Part shown: positions 1 to 6,738 of the stretch, piece after piece
How the letters are laid out: each line of letters begins with the position of its first letter
Position numbering within the stretch: the first letter of the stretch is position 1
Origin: Phycisphaerae bacterium
GTDB lineage: Bacteria; Planctomycetota; Phycisphaerae; Phycisphaerales; SM1A02
Direction: 5' to 3'
NCBI GenBank assembly: GCA_016873275.1
Contig: VGXO01000002.1
Span: forward strand, 1 to 64,000
DNA length: 64,000 bases
Notes under the pieces: generated by a model
What the model was told of the DNA's origin: nothing
Databases searched by the model: none
What the model saw: only the letters and a program-made list of their open reading frames with translations
Program-made: the position numbers and the translations under genes

Positions 1-33
1 GGCTCGGCGTGAGGACTCCGCCTCGCCTCGCGG

Positions 34-1119
34 TCAGTTCCTCCGCCGCACGATCGTGTACCAGCAGAGGAACTGCTTGGGGGCGTCCTCGGGCGCGATG
101 CCCTCGAGGTAGCCGAGACGCCGGAAGCAATCGAGCACCCACGCCTGATCGACCGCGTCGAAGGCGATCACCTCGAAGCCCGCCCTCTCGTACGCCTCGC
201 GCGAGAAGGGCGAGAGACCATCCGCCCACGGGATGTACTCCTGGTCCGGCGGATTCTGCGGAGGGCAGATGTTGTAGATCGCGAAGACCCCGCCCGGCAC
301 GAGCGCGTCGTGCACCTGCTTCAGGAACTCCTCGTCGGAGACGCCGAGGTGGACGAGCCGGCTCGGATCGACGGTCTGCCCCGGCGGCGGCGTGGGATGG
401 AGGTACCCCTTCTTGAGGGTGTTCTTGCTGGTGATCGCCGCGTAGCCGCCGCCGACCGCGGTCCGCAGCCGCTCCTCGGCAGGCCATTGCCCGGTGTGGA
501 TCGCGACCGACCCGCCGCCCATCGGACCGACGTCGCCCGGCTCGCTGTAGAGCGCCTCGAAGATCGGCTCCACGTCCACCCCGTGCGCATCGACGCCGCA
601 ATGCGCGAGGAGCTGCAGCTGCCCGATCGTTCCGTAGCCGAAGTCGAGGAGCTTCGGGCGATCGACGCGCGGAAGATGCGGCGCCACGAGATCAAGCACG
701 CGGACGTAGACGAGCGGCGAGCCGTAGCCGGTCTCGTAGTAGAACTGCGGCGTGCACTCGCGGGCGGTCAGCGACGCCTGCGCCTCGGGCGTCATCGCGT
801 CGTAGGCGCGCTGCGAGAGGGCGATCCCCTTCGCGCGGTCGCGGTAGATGACGCGGGCGCTCGGCTCGGCGAGGCTCGCGGTGGCGGCGAGGAACTGCCT
901 CGCGAGCGGGGTCGCGACGATCGTCTGGAGCTCCGCCGCGCGGAGCCTCATGAGGTCGGTGATGCGCTCGGGCGCCGGCGCGGCCGCGGCGTCGGTCGCG
1001 GGGGGCGTCGCCGGCGGCGGATCACCCGCGAGCACAGGACGCGCTGCCGGGATGAGGAGCATGACGGTCGCGAGGAAGAGGACCATCCGCCGAAGATCAA
1101 GCACGATGAGCCGCTGCAT
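34..1119 (-). CDS. Secreted or membrane-anchored SAM-methyltransferase-like protein
   Basis: This 361-residue protein begins with a hydrophobic signal-type segment (about residues 10-30, ending ARPVLAG) and a Pro/Ala-rich linker. A globular part from about residue 45 contains LLDFGYGTIGQLQLLA, which reads like motif I of a class I methyltransferase, and later ALVPGGVFAIYNI, which resembles the post-motif strand of that fold. A single-domain SAM enzyme placed outside the cytoplasm would be unusual, so the activity is inferred and could be lost. The ATG at 1119 was chosen because GGAGG lies 6 bases upstream of it and because the signal segment starts there; a longer frame to 1182 enters the minisatellite. 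The gene is not clearly in an operon. Confidence 0.6.
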   Translation of the reverse strand: MQRLIVLDLRRMVLFLATVMLLIPAARPVLAGDPPPATPPATDAAAAPAPERITDLMRLRAAELQTIVATPLARQFLAATASLAEPSARVIYRDRAKGIALSQRAYDAMTPEAQASLTARECTPQFYYETGYGSPLVYVRVLDLVAPHLPRVDRPKLLDFGYGTIGQLQLLAHCGVDAHGVDVEPIFEALYSEPGDVGPMGGGSVAIHTGQWPAEERLRTAVGGGYAAITSKNTLKKGYLHPTPPPGQTVDPSRLVHLGVSDEEFLKQVHDALVPGGVFAIYNICPPQNPPDQEYIPWADGLSPFSREAYERAGFEVIAFDAVDQAWVLDCFRRLGYLEGIAPEDAPKQFLCWYTIVRRRN

Positions 1120-1170
1120 TGGTCGCCTCCAGTCTCGGAACACGAGCCGAGCGGGTCGCCCCGCGTCAAG

Positions 1171-1252
1171 TCTATCGATCATGGTCTATCGATCTTGGTC
1201 GATCGATCATGGTCTATCGATCATGGTCTATCGATCTTGGTCGATCGATCAT
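1171..1252. repeat. 14-bp minisatellite with 42-bp higher-order period
   Basis: Nearly six copies of a 14-base unit lie head to tail. Three variants follow in order, TCTATCGATCATGG, TCTATCGATCTTGG and TCGATCGATCATGG, and the trio repeats (A-B-C-A-B-C', the last copy cut to 12 bases). The array is therefore a duplicated 42-base block. It fills the space between the start of the leftward methyltransferase-like gene and the end of the next leftward gene, and it is rich in ATCGAT palindromes. Confidence 0.9.
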
Positions 1253-1818
1253 CGCCCCGCTCCGCGTCGAACGCCGGACTTCACCGCCGGGCGAGACGCG
1301 CGTCGAAAGAGGACCCCGGATCCCGCGAAGAGCGCCGCGAAGACCCCGCTCAGGATGAACGCCTTGAGGAGCGCCAGCATCGGCGGCATCTCCCAGCGGA
1401 AGATCGCCAGCAGCGGCACGACCGCGATCGCGATCGCCGTCGCGAACATCGACCGCGACATGCCGCGGGGCTCGAGGCGGCTTCCGATCGCGCCACCCAC
1501 GGCGAGGAGAAGCGACGCGGGATAGAGCAGGTTCGCCGGATGCCTCTCGCTCGCGAGGATCCCGACCGCGCCCGTCAGCCAGAGGAGGACGAACGACGCC
1601 CCGAGCGCGACGCCGAGGGCGGCGAGGTGGATGCGGCTCGGGGCACGCTCCACGATCGCCGCGGCGCACACGCCAAGCCCGACGACCGCCGTCACCGCGA
1701 CCGCGAAGTCGAAGCGGCTCCACCGAAGCTCGCTGCCGAGCCGCATCGCGACGAGAGGCACCACCACGACGAGAAGGGCGGCGACCCCGGTGAGGAGGAG
1801 GATCGTGCGGGGCTTCAC
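1249..1818 (-). CDS. Small integral membrane protein
   Basis: This 189-residue protein has about five hydrophobic segments (near residues 5-24, 40-57, 67-88, 97-110 and 125-170) separated by short Arg-rich loops, and a basic C-terminus. No family was recognised. The start is GTG at 1818. A TACGCT hexamer ends 7 bases upstream of it, which fits a leaderless transcript. The 3' end touches the 14-bp repeat array, so the last residues may be shaped by repeat expansion. It is transcribed divergently from the small membrane protein at 1967. Confidence 0.6.
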   Translation of the reverse strand: MKPRTILLLTGVAALLVVVVPLVAMRLGSELRWSRFDFAVAVTAVVGLGVCAAAIVERAPSRIHLAALGVALGASFVLLWLTGAVGILASERHPANLLYPASLLLAVGGAIGSRLEPRGMSRSMFATAIAIAVVPLLAIFRWEMPPMLALLKAFILSGVFAALFAGSGVLFRRASRPAVKSGVRRGAGR

Positions 1819-1825
1819 CGGGCGG

Positions 1826-1831
1826 AGCGTA
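1826..1831 (-). promoter_or_regulatory. Predicted -10 element, leaderless start
   Basis: TACGCT read on the minus strand ends 7 bases before the GTG at 1818. It belongs to a TA-N3-T class found at the same distance from eight other starts in this window. No -35 hexamer is obvious. Confidence 0.4.
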
Positions 1832-1966
1832 GCGAGGATCCCGCGGGCGATGGTCGGCGCACTGGCGGGATCGCCGATGGATGCCGATCATGCCGCGGGT
1901 CCCCGGACGCCGCCGACCGTGGTATCCCACCCTCTCCTGACCGTCGGTCCTCTGGGAGCCTCCGCC

Positions 1967-2386
1967 ATGCCGAACGGACTTCGAAGCGTGCTCGCGGTCG
2001 TCGCGGGCGTGATCGTGGGCAGCGTCGTGAACCTGATCCTCATCAGCGTCGGGAGCGCGATCTTCCCGCATCCCGAGGGCGTGAATCCCGACAGCCTCGA
2101 GAGCATCCGCGAGAACATCCATCGGTTCCCGGTGGCGCTCCTCCTCTCGACCTTCGCCGCGCACGCGATCGGGACCCTCGTCGGCGGCGCGGTCGCCGCG
2201 CGGCTGAGTCCCTCCCGCGGGCTCGTGCAGGCGATGATCGTCGGAGCCTGGTTCCTCGCGGCAGGGATCGGGATGATCATCCTGATCCCCGACACCCCGC
2301 GCTGGTTCGCGGCGCTCGAGATCGTCGCCGGTTACCTGCCGATGGCGTGGATCGGCTGGCGGCTCGGCACGCGACCGACGGGGTGA
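1967..2386 (+). CDS. Small four-helix membrane protein
   Basis: This is a 139-residue protein with four predicted membrane helices: residues 6-27, 50-70, 80-102 and 110-130. The first loop contains FPHPEGVNPDSLESIRENIHR and the second has GTLVGGAVAARL. The pattern (a glycine-rich first helix, PEGVNP loop, GG-A-AAR motif) matches small uncharacterised membrane proteins common in Bacteroidetes and planctomycetes, but no function is known to me. The ATG at 1967 was chosen because GGGAG lies 8 bases upstream and the hydrophobic helix starts immediately; the frame upstream is Arg/Thr-rich and not protein-like. Confidence 0.65.
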   Translation: MPNGLRSVLAVVAGVIVGSVVNLILISVGSAIFPHPEGVNPDSLESIRENIHRFPVALLLSTFAAHAIGTLVGGAVAARLSPSRGLVQAMIVGAWFLAAGIGMIILIPDTPRWFAALEIVAGYLPMAWIGWRLGTRPTG

Positions 2387-2473
2387 CTCCCGGCGCGACA
2401 CACCCTCGTGACTCCCGGACGTGACTGCTCAAGCATCGCCTCGATCGCGCCCGGGTCGGAGGTCACGCTCCCA

Positions 2474-3304
2474 TCAGCTCGCCGGCAGGTCGATCAGCGC
2501 CATCAGCTGGGCGTGCATCGACGCACTGCCTCCGACCGCGCTGCCTCCGCCGATGTCGGCGCGACCCGTCCAGTCGGTGCAGACGCCGCCCGCCTCCGCC
2601 ACGATGAGCGGAAAGGGCGCGATGTCCCACGGATGCATGAGGGGATCGACCCAGCCATCCACCCGACCGGTCGCGAGCAGGATCCCGCCGTAGCAGTCGG
2701 ACCAGCTCCGGACGTGCGCCGCGGCATCGACGACGCGGCGCAGGACCTCCGTCGCGCCGCAGCGGCGGAAGTACTCGAGTCCCGAGACGCAGAGGAGCGC
2801 CTGCGAGACCACGCCGCAGGAACGCACCTGCGCCCGCGAACGATCGACGGCTCCATCGGCGCGGCGCCGCTCCCACCACGCCCCTCGCCCGCGTGCCGCC
2901 CAGACCCGCTCGCCGAGCGCCGGCATCGCGCAGAGCCCGCCGCAGACCTCGCCCTCGCGCTCGATCGCGATCAGGGTGCCGAACATCGGCACGCCCGCGG
3001 CGAAGGAGATCGTGCCGTCGATCGGATCGATGATCCAGCGCCATCCAGTCGTGCCCGGCTCGTCGCCATGCTCCTCGCCGAGGATCGCGTCGCCCGGGCA
3101 CTCCTCGCGGATCCCGGCGCGGAGCATCGCCTCGATCGCATGATCGGCGACCGTCACCGGCGAGGCGTCCGCCTTGCGTTCGACCCGCAGCGCCGGCGAC
3201 TGGAAGTGCTCGAGGGCGATGGCGCCCGCGCGATCGGCGAGTCGGAGGAGGAGGTCGATCCTCCCGTCGAGCGACCGGTCGGGGGTGGACGGAGGGTGGC
3301 TCAT
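2474..3304 (-). CDS. hisN: Inositol-monophosphatase family, probable histidinol-phosphatase
   Basis: This 276-residue enzyme of the Mg2+-dependent phosphatase (IMPase/FBPase) family shows all family signatures: GEEHG, with the metal-binding glutamates; DPIDGTISF, the metal and phosphate loop; and HPWDIAPF near the C-terminus. The stretch YGGILLATGRVDGWVDP is closer to the HisN type (histidinol phosphate to histidinol, histidine biosynthesis) than to inositol phosphatases, but substrate cannot be read with certainty. The start is uncertain. ATG 3304 is conservative; an in-frame ATG at 3358 adds 18 residues and overlaps the stop of the preceding permease remnant as TGATG, which suggests translational coupling in the ancestral arrangement. 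Confidence 0.78.
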   Translation of the reverse strand: MSHPPSTPDRSLDGRIDLLLRLADRAGAIALEHFQSPALRVERKADASPVTVADHAIEAMLRAGIREECPGDAILGEEHGDEPGTTGWRWIIDPIDGTISFAAGVPMFGTLIAIEREGEVCGGLCAMPALGERVWAARGRGAWWERRRADGAVDRSRAQVRSCGVVSQALLCVSGLEYFRRCGATEVLRRVVDAAAHVRSWSDCYGGILLATGRVDGWVDPLMHPWDIAPFPLIVAEAGGVCTDWTGRADIGGGSAVGGSASMHAQLMALIDLPAS

Positions 3305-3357
3305 GCGGCGGTCGACGCAGCGTAGCGGCGGCGACGGATCCCGCGGGTGGTCGGGCA

Positions 3358-3518
3358 TCAGCCGCGCTCGAGGTCCGTCCCGCTCGGCGGACGCGCGGTC
3401 GGCGAGATCCGCGAGCGATGCAGCACGAGGAGGCTGAGCGCCGCGACGAGCAGCAGGTCCCACCCCGCCGGAAGGAGTCCCCTGCCGCCTCCGTAGGCAC
3501 CCAGCGCGGAGATGACCG
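3358..3518 (-). pseudogene. C-terminal remnant of an APC-type amino-acid permease
   Basis: About 50 residues (ISALGAYGGGRGLL, then LPAGWDLLLVAALSLLVL, then a short basic tail) resemble the last transmembrane helix and end of amino-acid/polyamine permeases, where GGG-G-IP-WD--VVA--SL-- is typical. The match is from memory, not a search. The homology stops where the minisatellite starts at about 3520, and the rest of the permease is not found on the other side. The frame stays open through the array because the repeats lack stops, so a fused product is possible in principle. The stop overlaps an ATG of the phosphatase gene (TGATG). Confidence 0.5.
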
Positions 3519-3519
3519 C

Positions 3520-3833
3520 GGGAGGTCTTGGGGAGGTCTTGGGGAGGTCTTGGGAGGTCTTGGACAGGCATCGATCGGGGAGGTCTGGAGGTCTTGGACA
3601 GGCATCGATCGCGCGAGGAGGGAGGTCTTGGACAGGAGGTCTTGGACAGGCATCGATCGCGCGGGGAGGTCTTGGGAGGTCTTGGGAGGTCTTGGGAGGT
3701 CTTGGGAGGTCTTGGGAGGTCTTGGGAGGTCTTGGACAGGCATCGATGGGAGGTCTTGGACAGGCATCGATGGGAGGTCTTGGACAGGCATCGATGAGGT
3801 CTTGGACAGGCATCGATCGGGCGGGCATCGATC
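3520..3833. repeat. Composite minisatellite, 10-bp and 21-bp units
   Basis: Two interleaved units are visible. One is a 10-base unit AGGTCTTGGG, seven times in a row between about 3664 and 3736 and scattered at the left edge. The other is a 21-base unit made of AGGTCTTGG plus ACAGGCATCGAT, complete at 3555, 3589, 3637, 3727, 3751, 3775 and 3797 and partial at 3623. Copies four to six are spaced exactly 24 bases apart. All frames stay open through it, giving long meaningless repeat peptides on both strands. The array separates the permease remnant from the divergent FG-GAP gene. Confidence 0.92.
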
Positions 3834-3868
3834 AGACGCACGATGCTCGGTCGCGATGCGTTGCGAGC

Positions 3869-3904
3869 TGTGAGATGTCGTGTGAGATGTCGTGTGAGAT
3901 GTCG
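3869..3904. repeat. Three exact copies of a 12-bp unit
   Basis: TGTGAGATGTCG occurs three times without interruption and is followed at once by GGACAGGCATCGA, a further partial copy of the 21-base unit of the neighbouring array. It lies in the roughly 250 bases between the main array and the FG-GAP gene, where no gene was seen. Confidence 0.9.
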
Positions 3905-4070
3905 GACAGGCATCGAACCGGCGTCCGGCGGGACGAACCGAGAGCTCCGGCGCGGATCCGCGGCTCCGCGACCGCGACGCCCCTCGGCGAACCCTCTCGG
4001 CGGTGCCACCCTCTCGGCGATGCCACGCCGGCATTTCGGCATCCGAATCGGGACTCCCCTACATGCTCGG

Positions 4071-4076
4071 TATCGT
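4071..4076 (+). promoter_or_regulatory. Predicted -10 element, leaderless start
   Basis: TATCGT ends 6 bases before the ATG at 4083, so transcription should begin at or next to the start codon. It is the same arrangement as at eight other genes here. Confidence 0.45.
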
Positions 4077-4082
4077 CCGCCC

Positions 4083-5642
4083 ATGCCGCAGGGCGATCCC
4101 ACTCGAACTCCGATCACCAACCTCATCTCCAACGCAGTCACGGCGGGCTCCGTGGGCGTGATGCTCCTCGCCATCGGGTCGGCATGCCCAGCGTCCGCGC
4201 AGACCTTCGTCGACCGCGGCGCGGAGCTCGGTCTCGACGCGAGCGGCTCGCAGGCGGCGTGGGGCGACGTCGATGGCGATGGCTGGAGCGACCTCTGGAC
4301 CGGCGGCGCCGTGTGGTTGAATCGCCGCGGTGATCATCGCGGTGATCATGGTCGCGCCTTCGAGCGCGTGGAGGCGCCAGGCGAGGGCGTGATCGCCGAC
4401 CTCGACGGCGACGGGCGAGGCGACCTCGTCTCCTTCGCGCCGATCGCGGTCTGGCGCACCGTGCCCGACGGCGCGGGCGTTCGCTTCGAGCCTCGGACGC
4501 TCCCCGCGCTCCCGGAGACGACGAGCCGCGGCGTCGCGGTGGGCGACCTCGACGGCGACGCGCAGCTCGACCTCTTCTTCGGCGGCTACGAGGACTGGAA
4601 CCGCGGGATCACCTTCCCGAGCCTCCTCCTCCTCGCGGATGGCGACGGCTTCCGCCTCGCCCGCGTCGAGGTCCGCCACCGCACCCGCGGCGTCACCGCG
4701 TGCGACTTCGACGAGGATGGCGACCTCGACGTGTACCTCTCGAACTACCGCCTTCAGCCGAACGAGCTCCTCCTCAACGACGGCGTCGGATCCTTCGAGG
4801 ACGCGGCGCCCCGGCTCGGCGCCATCGCCACGAGTCCCGGCTTCGAGGGCGGACACTCGATCGGCGCGTGCTGGGGCGATCTCGACGGCGACGGGCGATT
4901 CGACCTCCTCGCGGGGAACTTCGCCCACGTCGACGACCGCGGCGACCAGCCGAAGAGCCGCGTGCTGCGGAACCGCGGCGGCGACGCAGGCTTCGAGGAT
5001 CTCGGCGAGCGCGGCATCTGGTATCAGGAGAGCTATGCGAGCCCGACGCTCGGCGACGTCGATCGCGACGGTCGGCTCGACCTCTTCTTCACCACGGTCT
5101 ATGCCGTCGCGAGCTTCGGACGACCGAACCATCCGGTGCTCTTCCGAAACGAACCGGTCGACGGCGCATGGACCTTCCGCGACGTCACGGCGGGCTCGGG
5201 GCTCGAGGCGCTGCCGCCGACCTACCAGGCTGCCTTCGCAGACTTCGACCAGGACGGTCGCGTCGACCTCGTGACGGCGGGACGGCTCTACCGCAACGAG
5301 TCCGCCGACGGGGGTCGATGGCTCCTCGTGCGGCTCGTCGGCGACGGCGAGCGGGTGCCCGTCGCCGCGATCGGATCGCAGGTGCGGGTCACGCTGCCGG
5401 GCGGTCGCGTGGTCGCGCGGCAGGTCGAGGTCGGCACCGGACAGGGCAACTCGAACGACCAACTGCTTCACCTTGGGCTCGGCGCGGTCGATGGACCGGT
5501 CCGCGTCGAGGTCCGATGGACCGACGGCGCCGTGACCGTGCTCGAGGGCGTCGAGGTCGATCGTTTGATCGAGGTCCCGCGGCGCGTGCCGGCTCGCCCC
5601 GCCACGCGAGGGCGTCGCGAGATCGAGCGATCCGCTCGCTGA
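4083..5642 (+). CDS. Secreted FG-GAP/VCBS repeat protein with ASPIC/UnbV C-terminus (CRTAC1-like)
   Basis: A signal peptide (about residues 1-40, ending SASAQ-like) is followed by FVDRGAELGLD and at least seven calcium-loop motifs of the form D-D-DG-D (DVDGDGWSD, DLDGDGRGD, DFDEDGDLD, DLDGDGRFD, DVDRDGRLD, DFDQDGRVD). These mark FG-GAP beta-propeller blades. The C-terminal approximately 100 residues (GSQVRVTLPGGRVVAR, then a QLLHLGLG segment) match the ASPIC/UnbV domain. Such proteins are exported and are thought to act in adhesion or extracellular binding; no enzyme activity is implied. There is no ribosome binding site, but a -10 element sits 6 bases upstream. The ATG at 4083 is preferred because the frame upstream is repeat-derived. 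A 12-base tandem duplication (4326-4349) gives GDHRGDHG in one loop. Confidence 0.85.
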   Translation: MPQGDPTRTPITNLISNAVTAGSVGVMLLAIGSACPASAQTFVDRGAELGLDASGSQAAWGDVDGDGWSDLWTGGAVWLNRRGDHRGDHGRAFERVEAPGEGVIADLDGDGRGDLVSFAPIAVWRTVPDGAGVRFEPRTLPALPETTSRGVAVGDLDGDAQLDLFFGGYEDWNRGITFPSLLLLADGDGFRLARVEVRHRTRGVTACDFDEDGDLDVYLSNYRLQPNELLLNDGVGSFEDAAPRLGAIATSPGFEGGHSIGACWGDLDGDGRFDLLAGNFAHVDDRGDQPKSRVLRNRGGDAGFEDLGERGIWYQESYASPTLGDVDRDGRLDLFFTTVYAVASFGRPNHPVLFRNEPVDGAWTFRDVTAGSGLEALPPTYQAAFADFDQDGRVDLVTAGRLYRNESADGGRWLLVRLVGDGERVPVAAIGSQVRVTLPGGRVVARQVEVGTGQGNSNDQLLHLGLGAVDGPVRVEVRWTDGAVTVLEGVEVDRLIEVPRRVPARPATRGRREIERSAR

Positions 5643-5679
5643 CGCCCCCGCGACGATCGAGACCGACGCGGCGCTCGGC

Positions 5680-6738
5680 TCAGAACCGGAACGCCACGAA
5701 GCCTCCGATGAAGAAGCTCGGGTCGGTGTCCTGCGAGGTCAGCTTCGAGCCCGCGGCGTCCCACAGCTCGTACTGGTCGAAGAGGCTGACGCCGCAGACG
5801 AAGTCGAGCCGGAGCGACTCGCTCGCCCGCCACTCCGCCCGCACCCACAGCGGGAAGTTCTGCTCGCCGCCGACGCCGCCCGCGCGGGTCACCGGACCGG
5901 AGTCGTCGAGGCGGAACTGGCGGTACTCGTAGCGACCGCCGATCCCGAACGCGAGCGGCTTGGTCGGGTTCCAGATGAGCTCGATGCCGGCGCCGGTGGG
6001 GTACGCCTCCGGTCCCGCGACGTTGCTGAGGCGCAGTCCCTCCGCGATCCGCCAGTCGATGAAGATCAGCGGGATCACCAGCGGTCCCTGCTGCAGGCGG
6101 GTCGCGAGGAGGGCACCGCCGCCGAGGATGAAGTGCTCCGAGAACGCGTAGGTCGCGCCGACCGTGCCGCCGAAGGTGAAGCTGTCGCCGGCGCTCGCCG
6201 AGTTCTCGCCGGAGAACTGCCCGAAGAGCCCGGCGCTCGCCCGCCACTGACGGTCGAAGGCGTAGTCCACGCGACCGCCGATCTGGACGCTCGTCACGTT
6301 CGTCCACGGCGCGCCGCCCGCGATTCGGGTGATCGTCGAGTCCCCGCCGAAGTCGTAGAAGTCGCCCTCGTAGCCGATCCGCAGGCCGATCCCGAGCTGG
6401 GGATCGAGCCGGATGCGGGTGCCGATCCCGGCGTAGGCGCGGGCGACGGAGACGTTGCCGCCGCCCGACTGGAAGTCGCCGTCGAAGTCGTAGAGCGCGC
6501 CGCCGAAGATCACCGTCGAGATGGCGGGGCCCTCCGGGATGTTCGGCGCCATGCCCTCACCGCCGCCCTCGGTGGGCGGGATCGGATTGGGCGGCGGGTT
6601 CTCGACCGAGACGTCGCCAAGGGCGCCGCCGCGGCGGTCGCCCGGGAACTGACCGAGCGCCGGCGAGGCGAACGCCGACGCGAACGCGAGGACGTTCAGT
6701 GCGATGAACGACGCGGGACGGAAGCAGACCGTGCGCAT
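5680..6738 (-). CDS. Outer-membrane beta-barrel-like protein (DUF6268-like)
   Basis: This 352-residue protein has a signal peptide ending FASPALGQ, a Gly/Pro-rich linker, and then alternating-residue beta strands through to a terminal phenylalanine (AFRF), the usual outer-membrane insertion signal. The layout and motifs such as [24 protein letters not shown] and [13 protein letters not shown] fit a family of planctomycete barrel proteins that I associate with DUF6268; this is from memory. Its role is unknown (porin or structural barrel). It converges with the FG-GAP gene and its start carries a TACCAT element 6 bases upstream, with no ribosome binding site. Confidence 0.65.

Follow-up and report, generated by a model that had tools for sequence, protein, structure and literature searches.

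We report that the repeat field at positions 3519-3912 of the window (the whole stretch of 64,000 nucleotides that was analysed) is an array of a dispersed, non-palindromic family of direct repeats, which is built from the core TGCCTGTCC and an arm of 8-12 bases that is homogeneous within an array and different between arrays. The family is probably that of a HUH tyrosine transposase of the TnpA-Y1 subclass 2.3 type, and an amino-acid permease gene was probably deleted beside this array. The initial annotation had described the field as a minisatellite. A private minisatellite is ruled out because TGCCTGTCC is dispersed genome-wide; the field belongs instead to a repeat family that occurs throughout the genome and is linked to the HUH transposase.

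In the window TGCCTGTCC occurs eight times, always on the minus strand and always within the field, 0.46 copies being expected in the window from shuffling (Table 1). The right arm that follows the core is AAGACCTCC in seven cases and GACATCTCACAC in one, and both right arms are also iterated without the core. Tandem Repeats Finder returned periods of 10, 11, 21, 24 and 34 bases between 3520 and 3817. The 10- and 21-base repeats first described here were therefore found, but the field extends beyond the 300 bases assigned to them, as far as 3912, and is better described as eight cores with iterated arms. Within the assembly the arm AAGACCTCC is confined to this field, where it is present both next to the permease and at the opposite side; arm and core at full match occur in the window array only, with a two-mismatch variant in an array on contig C3, and in a search of the assembly every exact match to the doubled arm CAAGACCTCCCAAGACCTCC fell in the window array. 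A second minisatellite lies at 1170-1252 of the window, between two minus-strand ORFs; it has the 14-base unit GTCTATCGATCATG, contains a 42-base double unit twice (100%) and is devoid of the TGCCTGTCC core.

Table 1. Features at and around the repeat field, in window coordinates
Feature	Position	Strand	Evidence
Inositol-monophosphatase-family gene	2474-3358	-	Pfam PF00459, E 1.4e-43 on 2474-3304
APC amino-acid permease C-terminal remnant, ~53 codons	3358-3519	-	tblastn/BLASTP against congener permease
Repeat array, 8 cores TGCCTGTCC	3519-3912	-	Tandem Repeats Finder and core count
Core 1	3562-3570	-	TGCCTGTCC count
Core 2	3596-3604	-	TGCCTGTCC count
Core 3	3644-3652	-	TGCCTGTCC count
10-base right arm (AAGACCTCCC on minus strand), 7.2 perfect copies without core	3664-3735	-	Tandem Repeats Finder
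Core 4	3734-3742	-	TGCCTGTCC count
Core 5	3758-3766	-	TGCCTGTCC count
Core 6	3782-3790	-	TGCCTGTCC count
Core 7	3804-3812	-	TGCCTGTCC count
12-base right arm, three copies, following core 8	3869-3904	-	Tandem Repeats Finder
Core 8, far end of array	3904-3912	-	TGCCTGTCC count
Divergent FG-GAP/ASPIC-UnbV protein gene	4083-5642	+	Pfam FG-GAP_3, 6.7e-34; UnbV_ASPIC, 1.2e-14

On the minus strand the frame from 3519 to 3358 reads AVISALGAYGGGRGLLPAGWDLLLVAALSLLVLHRSRISPTARPPSGTDLERG, ends in the stop TGA at 3360-3358 and is open into the array. These residues, about 50 in number, had been likened to the end of an APC permease, and the BLAST check proposed for them confirmed the similarity: they align with residues 470-518 of the 518-aa permease of a congener (G001) at 45% identity over 49 residues (BLASTP, single comparison, E 5e-12). 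Among the 41 genomes searched, strong matches outside the window's own genome were confined to two congeners (E 1.4e-9 and 2.8e-8), in which the gene is intact at 516 and 518 aa. The full-length homologues in the congeners belong to Pfam AA_permease_2 (PF13520), and the remnant by itself matched no Pfam family. As had been noted, the permease homology breaks off where the repeats begin; it starts exactly at base 3519 (residue 470), the edge of the field. The rest of the permease, some 470 residues that include the transmembrane core domain, was not found anywhere in the assembly, where the nearest other permease-like sequence is a 28% identical paralog on contig C17, and no further credible permease pieces were found in window positions 1-6500. 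To judge from its sequence, the segment is a remnant and not a working APC member, since the core domain is absent and the remnant has no Pfam match.

The surroundings of the remnant are also as first described. Its stop shares one base with a possible ATG of the inositol-monophosphatase gene at 3358-3356 (TGATG), and on the far side of the array a divergent gene starts at ATG 4083, in which no signs of truncation were found. The suggested comparison with sister genomes gave a divided answer: the congeners hold the whole permease gene, but gene order at the locus is not conserved between the window's genome and these two, and an array-free ancestor of the junction was not found there. The likeliest history is loss of the permease adjoining the repeats by a deletion at the array edge, and a local rearrangement of the repeat family probably removed most of the gene. 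The initial annotation had offered either such a rearrangement or a join of unrelated contig pieces; the latter is weakened by the private arm on both sides.

A truncated gene next to an array is unusual in this genome. In a Pfam scan of 30 ORFs beside 13 other array loci, several of which had no domain and were uninformative, the domains found (GroEL, T2SSE, fucosidase, O-methyltransferase, multicopper oxidase, FAD-binding, FGE-sulfatase, I42 and CIA30) reach close to the end of their profile on the side facing the array. Thus, arrays are generally located between intact genes, and gene loss is not their usual effect.

The missing 470 residues, in an assembly of 136 contigs, raise the question of whether the truncation is an assembly artefact: in the cell the permease might be whole, or the array might consist of two halves with a longer stretch between them. 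The permease frame runs into the array without a stop, and seven of the 19 core clusters listed, a number that takes in single cores, are no more than 800 bases from a contig end, the expectation being 6.7% (binomial p 1.5e-4); when single cores are left out, the figure is five of the 14 listed (p 0.0017). This excess at contig ends indicates that core arrays break this assembly, which is a caution for metagenome assemblies with arrays of this type. Nevertheless, we regard an artefact as quite improbable: the arm on the permease side occupies the far side of the array as well and no other place in the assembly, a shared core of 9 bases would not suffice to link different arrays in an ordinary graph, and estimated completeness is 100%. 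The private arm at either side makes a misjoin to a different array unlikely, but a collapse inside the window array may have occurred.

The dispersal of the core is seen across the window's genome, in which TGCCTGTCC was counted 200 times against 11 for a reversed control; among the first 100 of the 200 places listed, the copies are mostly in tight arrays. The listed places gave 15 stretches with 17 clusters of at least two cores. Over nine bases, the mean Hamming distance between right arms was 2.15 within clusters and 4.37 between them. Of the arm copies without a core, 76 were right-sided and 12 left-sided, the right side exceeding the left in 16 of the 17 clusters and the left exceeding the right in none, and one orientation is kept in most clusters of this genome. 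Array-specific pairing of left and right arms was not found, the pairing value being 3.09 within arrays and 3.06 between them. Across 84 core-first GTDB arrays, right and left iteration stood at 159/159 in total, with 31 arrays leaning right and 16 leaning left.

Outside the window's genome, the core is found in some relatives and in many phyla. Five of 61 genomes are rich in GTGCCTGTCC, by a cut-off that was set after the counts were seen : the window's genome, 67 against 3; G018, 125/0; G021, 50/20; G023, 50/13; and G015, 28/6. A GTDB contig scan for three tandem cores gave at least 116 stretches from many phyla, of which 80 were turned into loci; this core-first set includes coding repeats and other kinds of array (by eye L084, L085, L099, L113, L122 and L144). 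A short oriented oligonucleotide in such high copy number could also be a host signal, such as a Chi-like motif, a motif for uptake or partition, or a binding site, with no tie to a transposase. We consider this exceedingly improbable, since the listed copies are mostly in tight arrays and not spread along the genome, GTGCCTGTCC is rare in both congeners (4 and 1 copies), and the cores point outward from one gene family.

That gene family emerged from the arrays themselves. In an all-against-all comparison of the 80 core-first loci, the commonest shared ORF family was a HUH protein of ~320 aa, present at 11 loci, and at five loci (L091, L093, L119, L121 and L146) cores lie on both sides of its gene, mostly reading outward. 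Ten HUH proteins of 310-353 aa make up our alignment A1, in which YVDLNP is invariant and NHYH and WE are consensus motifs with variants. A1 found matches in 10 of 61 relatives (E up to 1e-5) and in 26 of 392 genomes of the phylum (E up to 1e-30); Pfam PF01797 barely detects the family, and NCBIfam REP_Tyr_transpos matches it below its cut-off. An AlphaFold model of the Pseudomaricurvus protein (pLDDT 79.5) had as its top PDB match 4er8, in which a REP-associated tyrosine transposase is bound to its hairpin (E 3.9e-5); the IS200, IS608 and ISDra2 transposases came next at weaker E-values, so that the protein is predicted to have the HUH Y1 fold. A PDB sequence search with the transposase profile gave no useful match. 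In length, motifs and predicted fold, the protein agrees with TnpA-Y1 subclass 2.3.

Two pieces of such a protein are encoded in the window's genome, both at contig ends. An N-terminal piece (residues 1-76, with NHFH) is at C63:5-214, and four outward cores lie at 297-466 of that contig, 80-250 bases upstream; a C-terminal piece (residues 178-326, with YVDLNE) is at C97:5660-6058. They may be one split gene or two. In locus L255, which comes from C97, an ORF at about 1800-2345 of the locus that by eye has an IS3-type integrase core adjoins the C-terminal piece. Across genomes, the HUH gene is present in four of the five core-rich genomes and in six of the 56 others (Fisher p 0.0018). The exception among the core-rich genomes is G015 (28 against 6), which has no A1 match; its gene may have been lost or may be unassembled, or its cores may be owned by another enzyme. 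At the core-first locus L110, the minus-strand ORF at 101-907 encodes a Y1 transposase of 269 aa that is of a different type; cores of both orientations, inward and outward, lie some kilobases from it.

The orientation of the cores was then measured from the protein side: genes were found by protein alone, and core sites in their 600-base flanks were counted as outward or inward. The cores around the HUH genes are of the form TGNNTGTCC, related to TGCCTGTCC; they sit in the flanks and mostly read outward. At 25 loci of the relatives, the outward/inward counts were 35/2 for TGCCTGTCC, a core derived from the window, and 72/3 for TG..TGTCC, and at 29 loci of the phylum they were 10/0 and 21/2, respectively; 14 of these 29 had no TG..TGTCC within 600 bases. 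The counts are of sites, and loci from the same genome cannot be treated as independent. TG..TGTCC was defined after part of the relatives' loci had been inspected, and the phylum loci were fetched once the pattern was fixed; thus, for this pattern only the phylum test is clean. Thirteen loci from plasmid or megaplasmid records, mostly of Pseudoalteromonas, where the core is GTGGGTGTC, gave 15/4 for TG..TGTCC, 26/3 for GTG..TGTC and 2/1 for exact TGCCTGTCC. PF01797-type Y1 genes of these relatives served as the control, and their 20 loci gave 0/0 for TGCCTGTCC and 0/2 for TG..TGTCC. The PF01797-type transposase is ruled out as owner of the cores, because it has no match in the window's genome and no outward cores at these 20 genes. 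The association of the cores with genes of the ~320-aa HUH transposase, and their outward polarity, are well supported. Core type follows the transposase tree with weak clustering: among the 24 of 67 loci at which one core type led with at least three copies and the protein was of sufficient length, 12 changes were needed, the shuffled mean being 15.0 and a value as low being reached in 3 of 200 shuffles.

These counts bear on whether the field could be an ordinary minisatellite, grown by plain replication slippage beside an older and unrelated permease deletion with the transposase uninvolved. Slippage would yield local homogeneity and short perfect tandems, domains next to the other arrays of the genome are not truncated, and G015 has many cores and no detected transposase. 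However, the genome has 200 copies of the same 9-base core, this core recurs with differing arms in many phyla, and cores point away from the genes of one transposase family but not from those of others, which makes slippage by itself improbable. Like bacterial minisatellites and VNTRs, the arrays are tandem with array-homogenised units; unlike them, they have a core common to arrays and phyla, a fixed layout of core and iterated arm, and a link to a transposase.

A REP is a hairpin that has a GT[AG]G foot. The present family resembles the E. coli-type REP/REPIN and RAYT (TnpA-REP) system in its predicted HUH Y1 fold, in a gene flanked by its own repeat and in hundreds of intergenic copies, but its arms are unpaired and its copies are direct, tandem and of one orientation per array. 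The foot is absent from the core in the window's genome. Identity with a REP hairpin is ruled out, since the arms do not pair array-specifically.

In the available text of Quentin et al. 2018 (PMC6006769), subclass 2.3 has a median length of 325 aa and the motifs NHYH, WE and YVDLNP, and neither automatic nor manual search found REP-like sequences for subclasses 2.1 and 2.3; TIRYTs are mostly placed in subclass 2.1. Our proteins agree with that account in length (310-353 aa), in motifs and in their occurrence in Alteromonadales such as Pseudoalteromonas and Catenovulum. They differ from the subclass as described there, without a REP-like partner, in having outward non-palindromic cores in their flanks and dispersed tandem arrays. 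As far as the accessible sources go, TIRtrons are the nearest known layout: a Y1 gene has inverted repeats on both sides, as at several loci here, and the repeats are dispersed singly, as dimers and in clusters, comparable to the dispersed copies of the present family. The core, the tandem one-sided growth and membership of a subclass reported as bare set the present family apart from them. The TIR motif GGGGWSAS (outward STSWCCCC), which in the available text of Di Nocera et al. 2013 (PMC3733652) is common to some TIRs only, occurs at our 67 HUH loci 11 times outward and six times inward. A search of literature that included few subscription papers found no published report of these cores with a subclass 2.3 enzyme. 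Against these accessible descriptions, the best reading is that subclass 2.3, reported without a REP-like partner, has here a candidate partner repeat in a REPtron/TIRtron-like system that is non-palindromic and tandem.

Two further kinds of array were seen in the core-first set. At L088, L089, L096, L134, L148 and L153 (gut Clostridia and Chloroflexi), the array units are ~35 bases long with TGCCTGTCCC, no shared transposase of the ~320-aa HUH family was found, and the arrays are possibly another repeat class. L140 and L157 (Geomonas paludis) have GACTGGCTCCGYCAGGTGCCTGTCCCCTT array units containing the TIRYT-like CTGTCCCC, with no A1-type gene in the loci.

For the preferred reading, an array of the repeat family of a subclass-2.3-type transposase with a permease deleted beside it, we propose the following course. 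The HUH enzyme would nick single-stranded DNA at or beside the core, and cleavage, strand transfer or replication slippage at the nick would multiply the right arm. Either this process or a recombination of arms with one another could have deleted the 5' nine tenths of the permease next to or under the array, and this would have left the in-frame remnant ahead of the inositol-monophosphatase gene. The role of the array as cause of the deletion and the order of events are inferred, and the cutting and joining of the repeat by the enzyme is likewise putative.

If the outward TGNNTGTC/KCC cores are the partner of subclass 2.3, the enzyme would have a defined substrate open to in vitro tests, a large class of bacterial tandem arrays that now lack an explanation would have an owner, and a mechanism of local repeat growth and gene loss would become testable. 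A further-reaching idea, which we think unlikely, is that subclass 2.3 enzymes write DNA: a nick 3' of TGNNTGTCC would lead to recopying of the adjacent arm, with one-sided growth, conversion of the local sequence into arm and occasional deletions. If this were true, the family would be a repeat-writing, genome-editing system across many phyla and not a transposon family with mobile units.

Paralogous HUH genes of one genome can have different outward cores. In G023, TGCCTGTCC is found at three HUH genes and TGTGTGTCC at a fourth, these being divergent paralogs. Different outward cores (TGCCTGTCC, TGCGTGTCC and TGTGTGTCC) were seen at paralogous genes in G021 (L240, L246 and L251) and in G023 (L229, L245 and L250), and the paralog sets of these two genomes are natural pairs for specificity tests.
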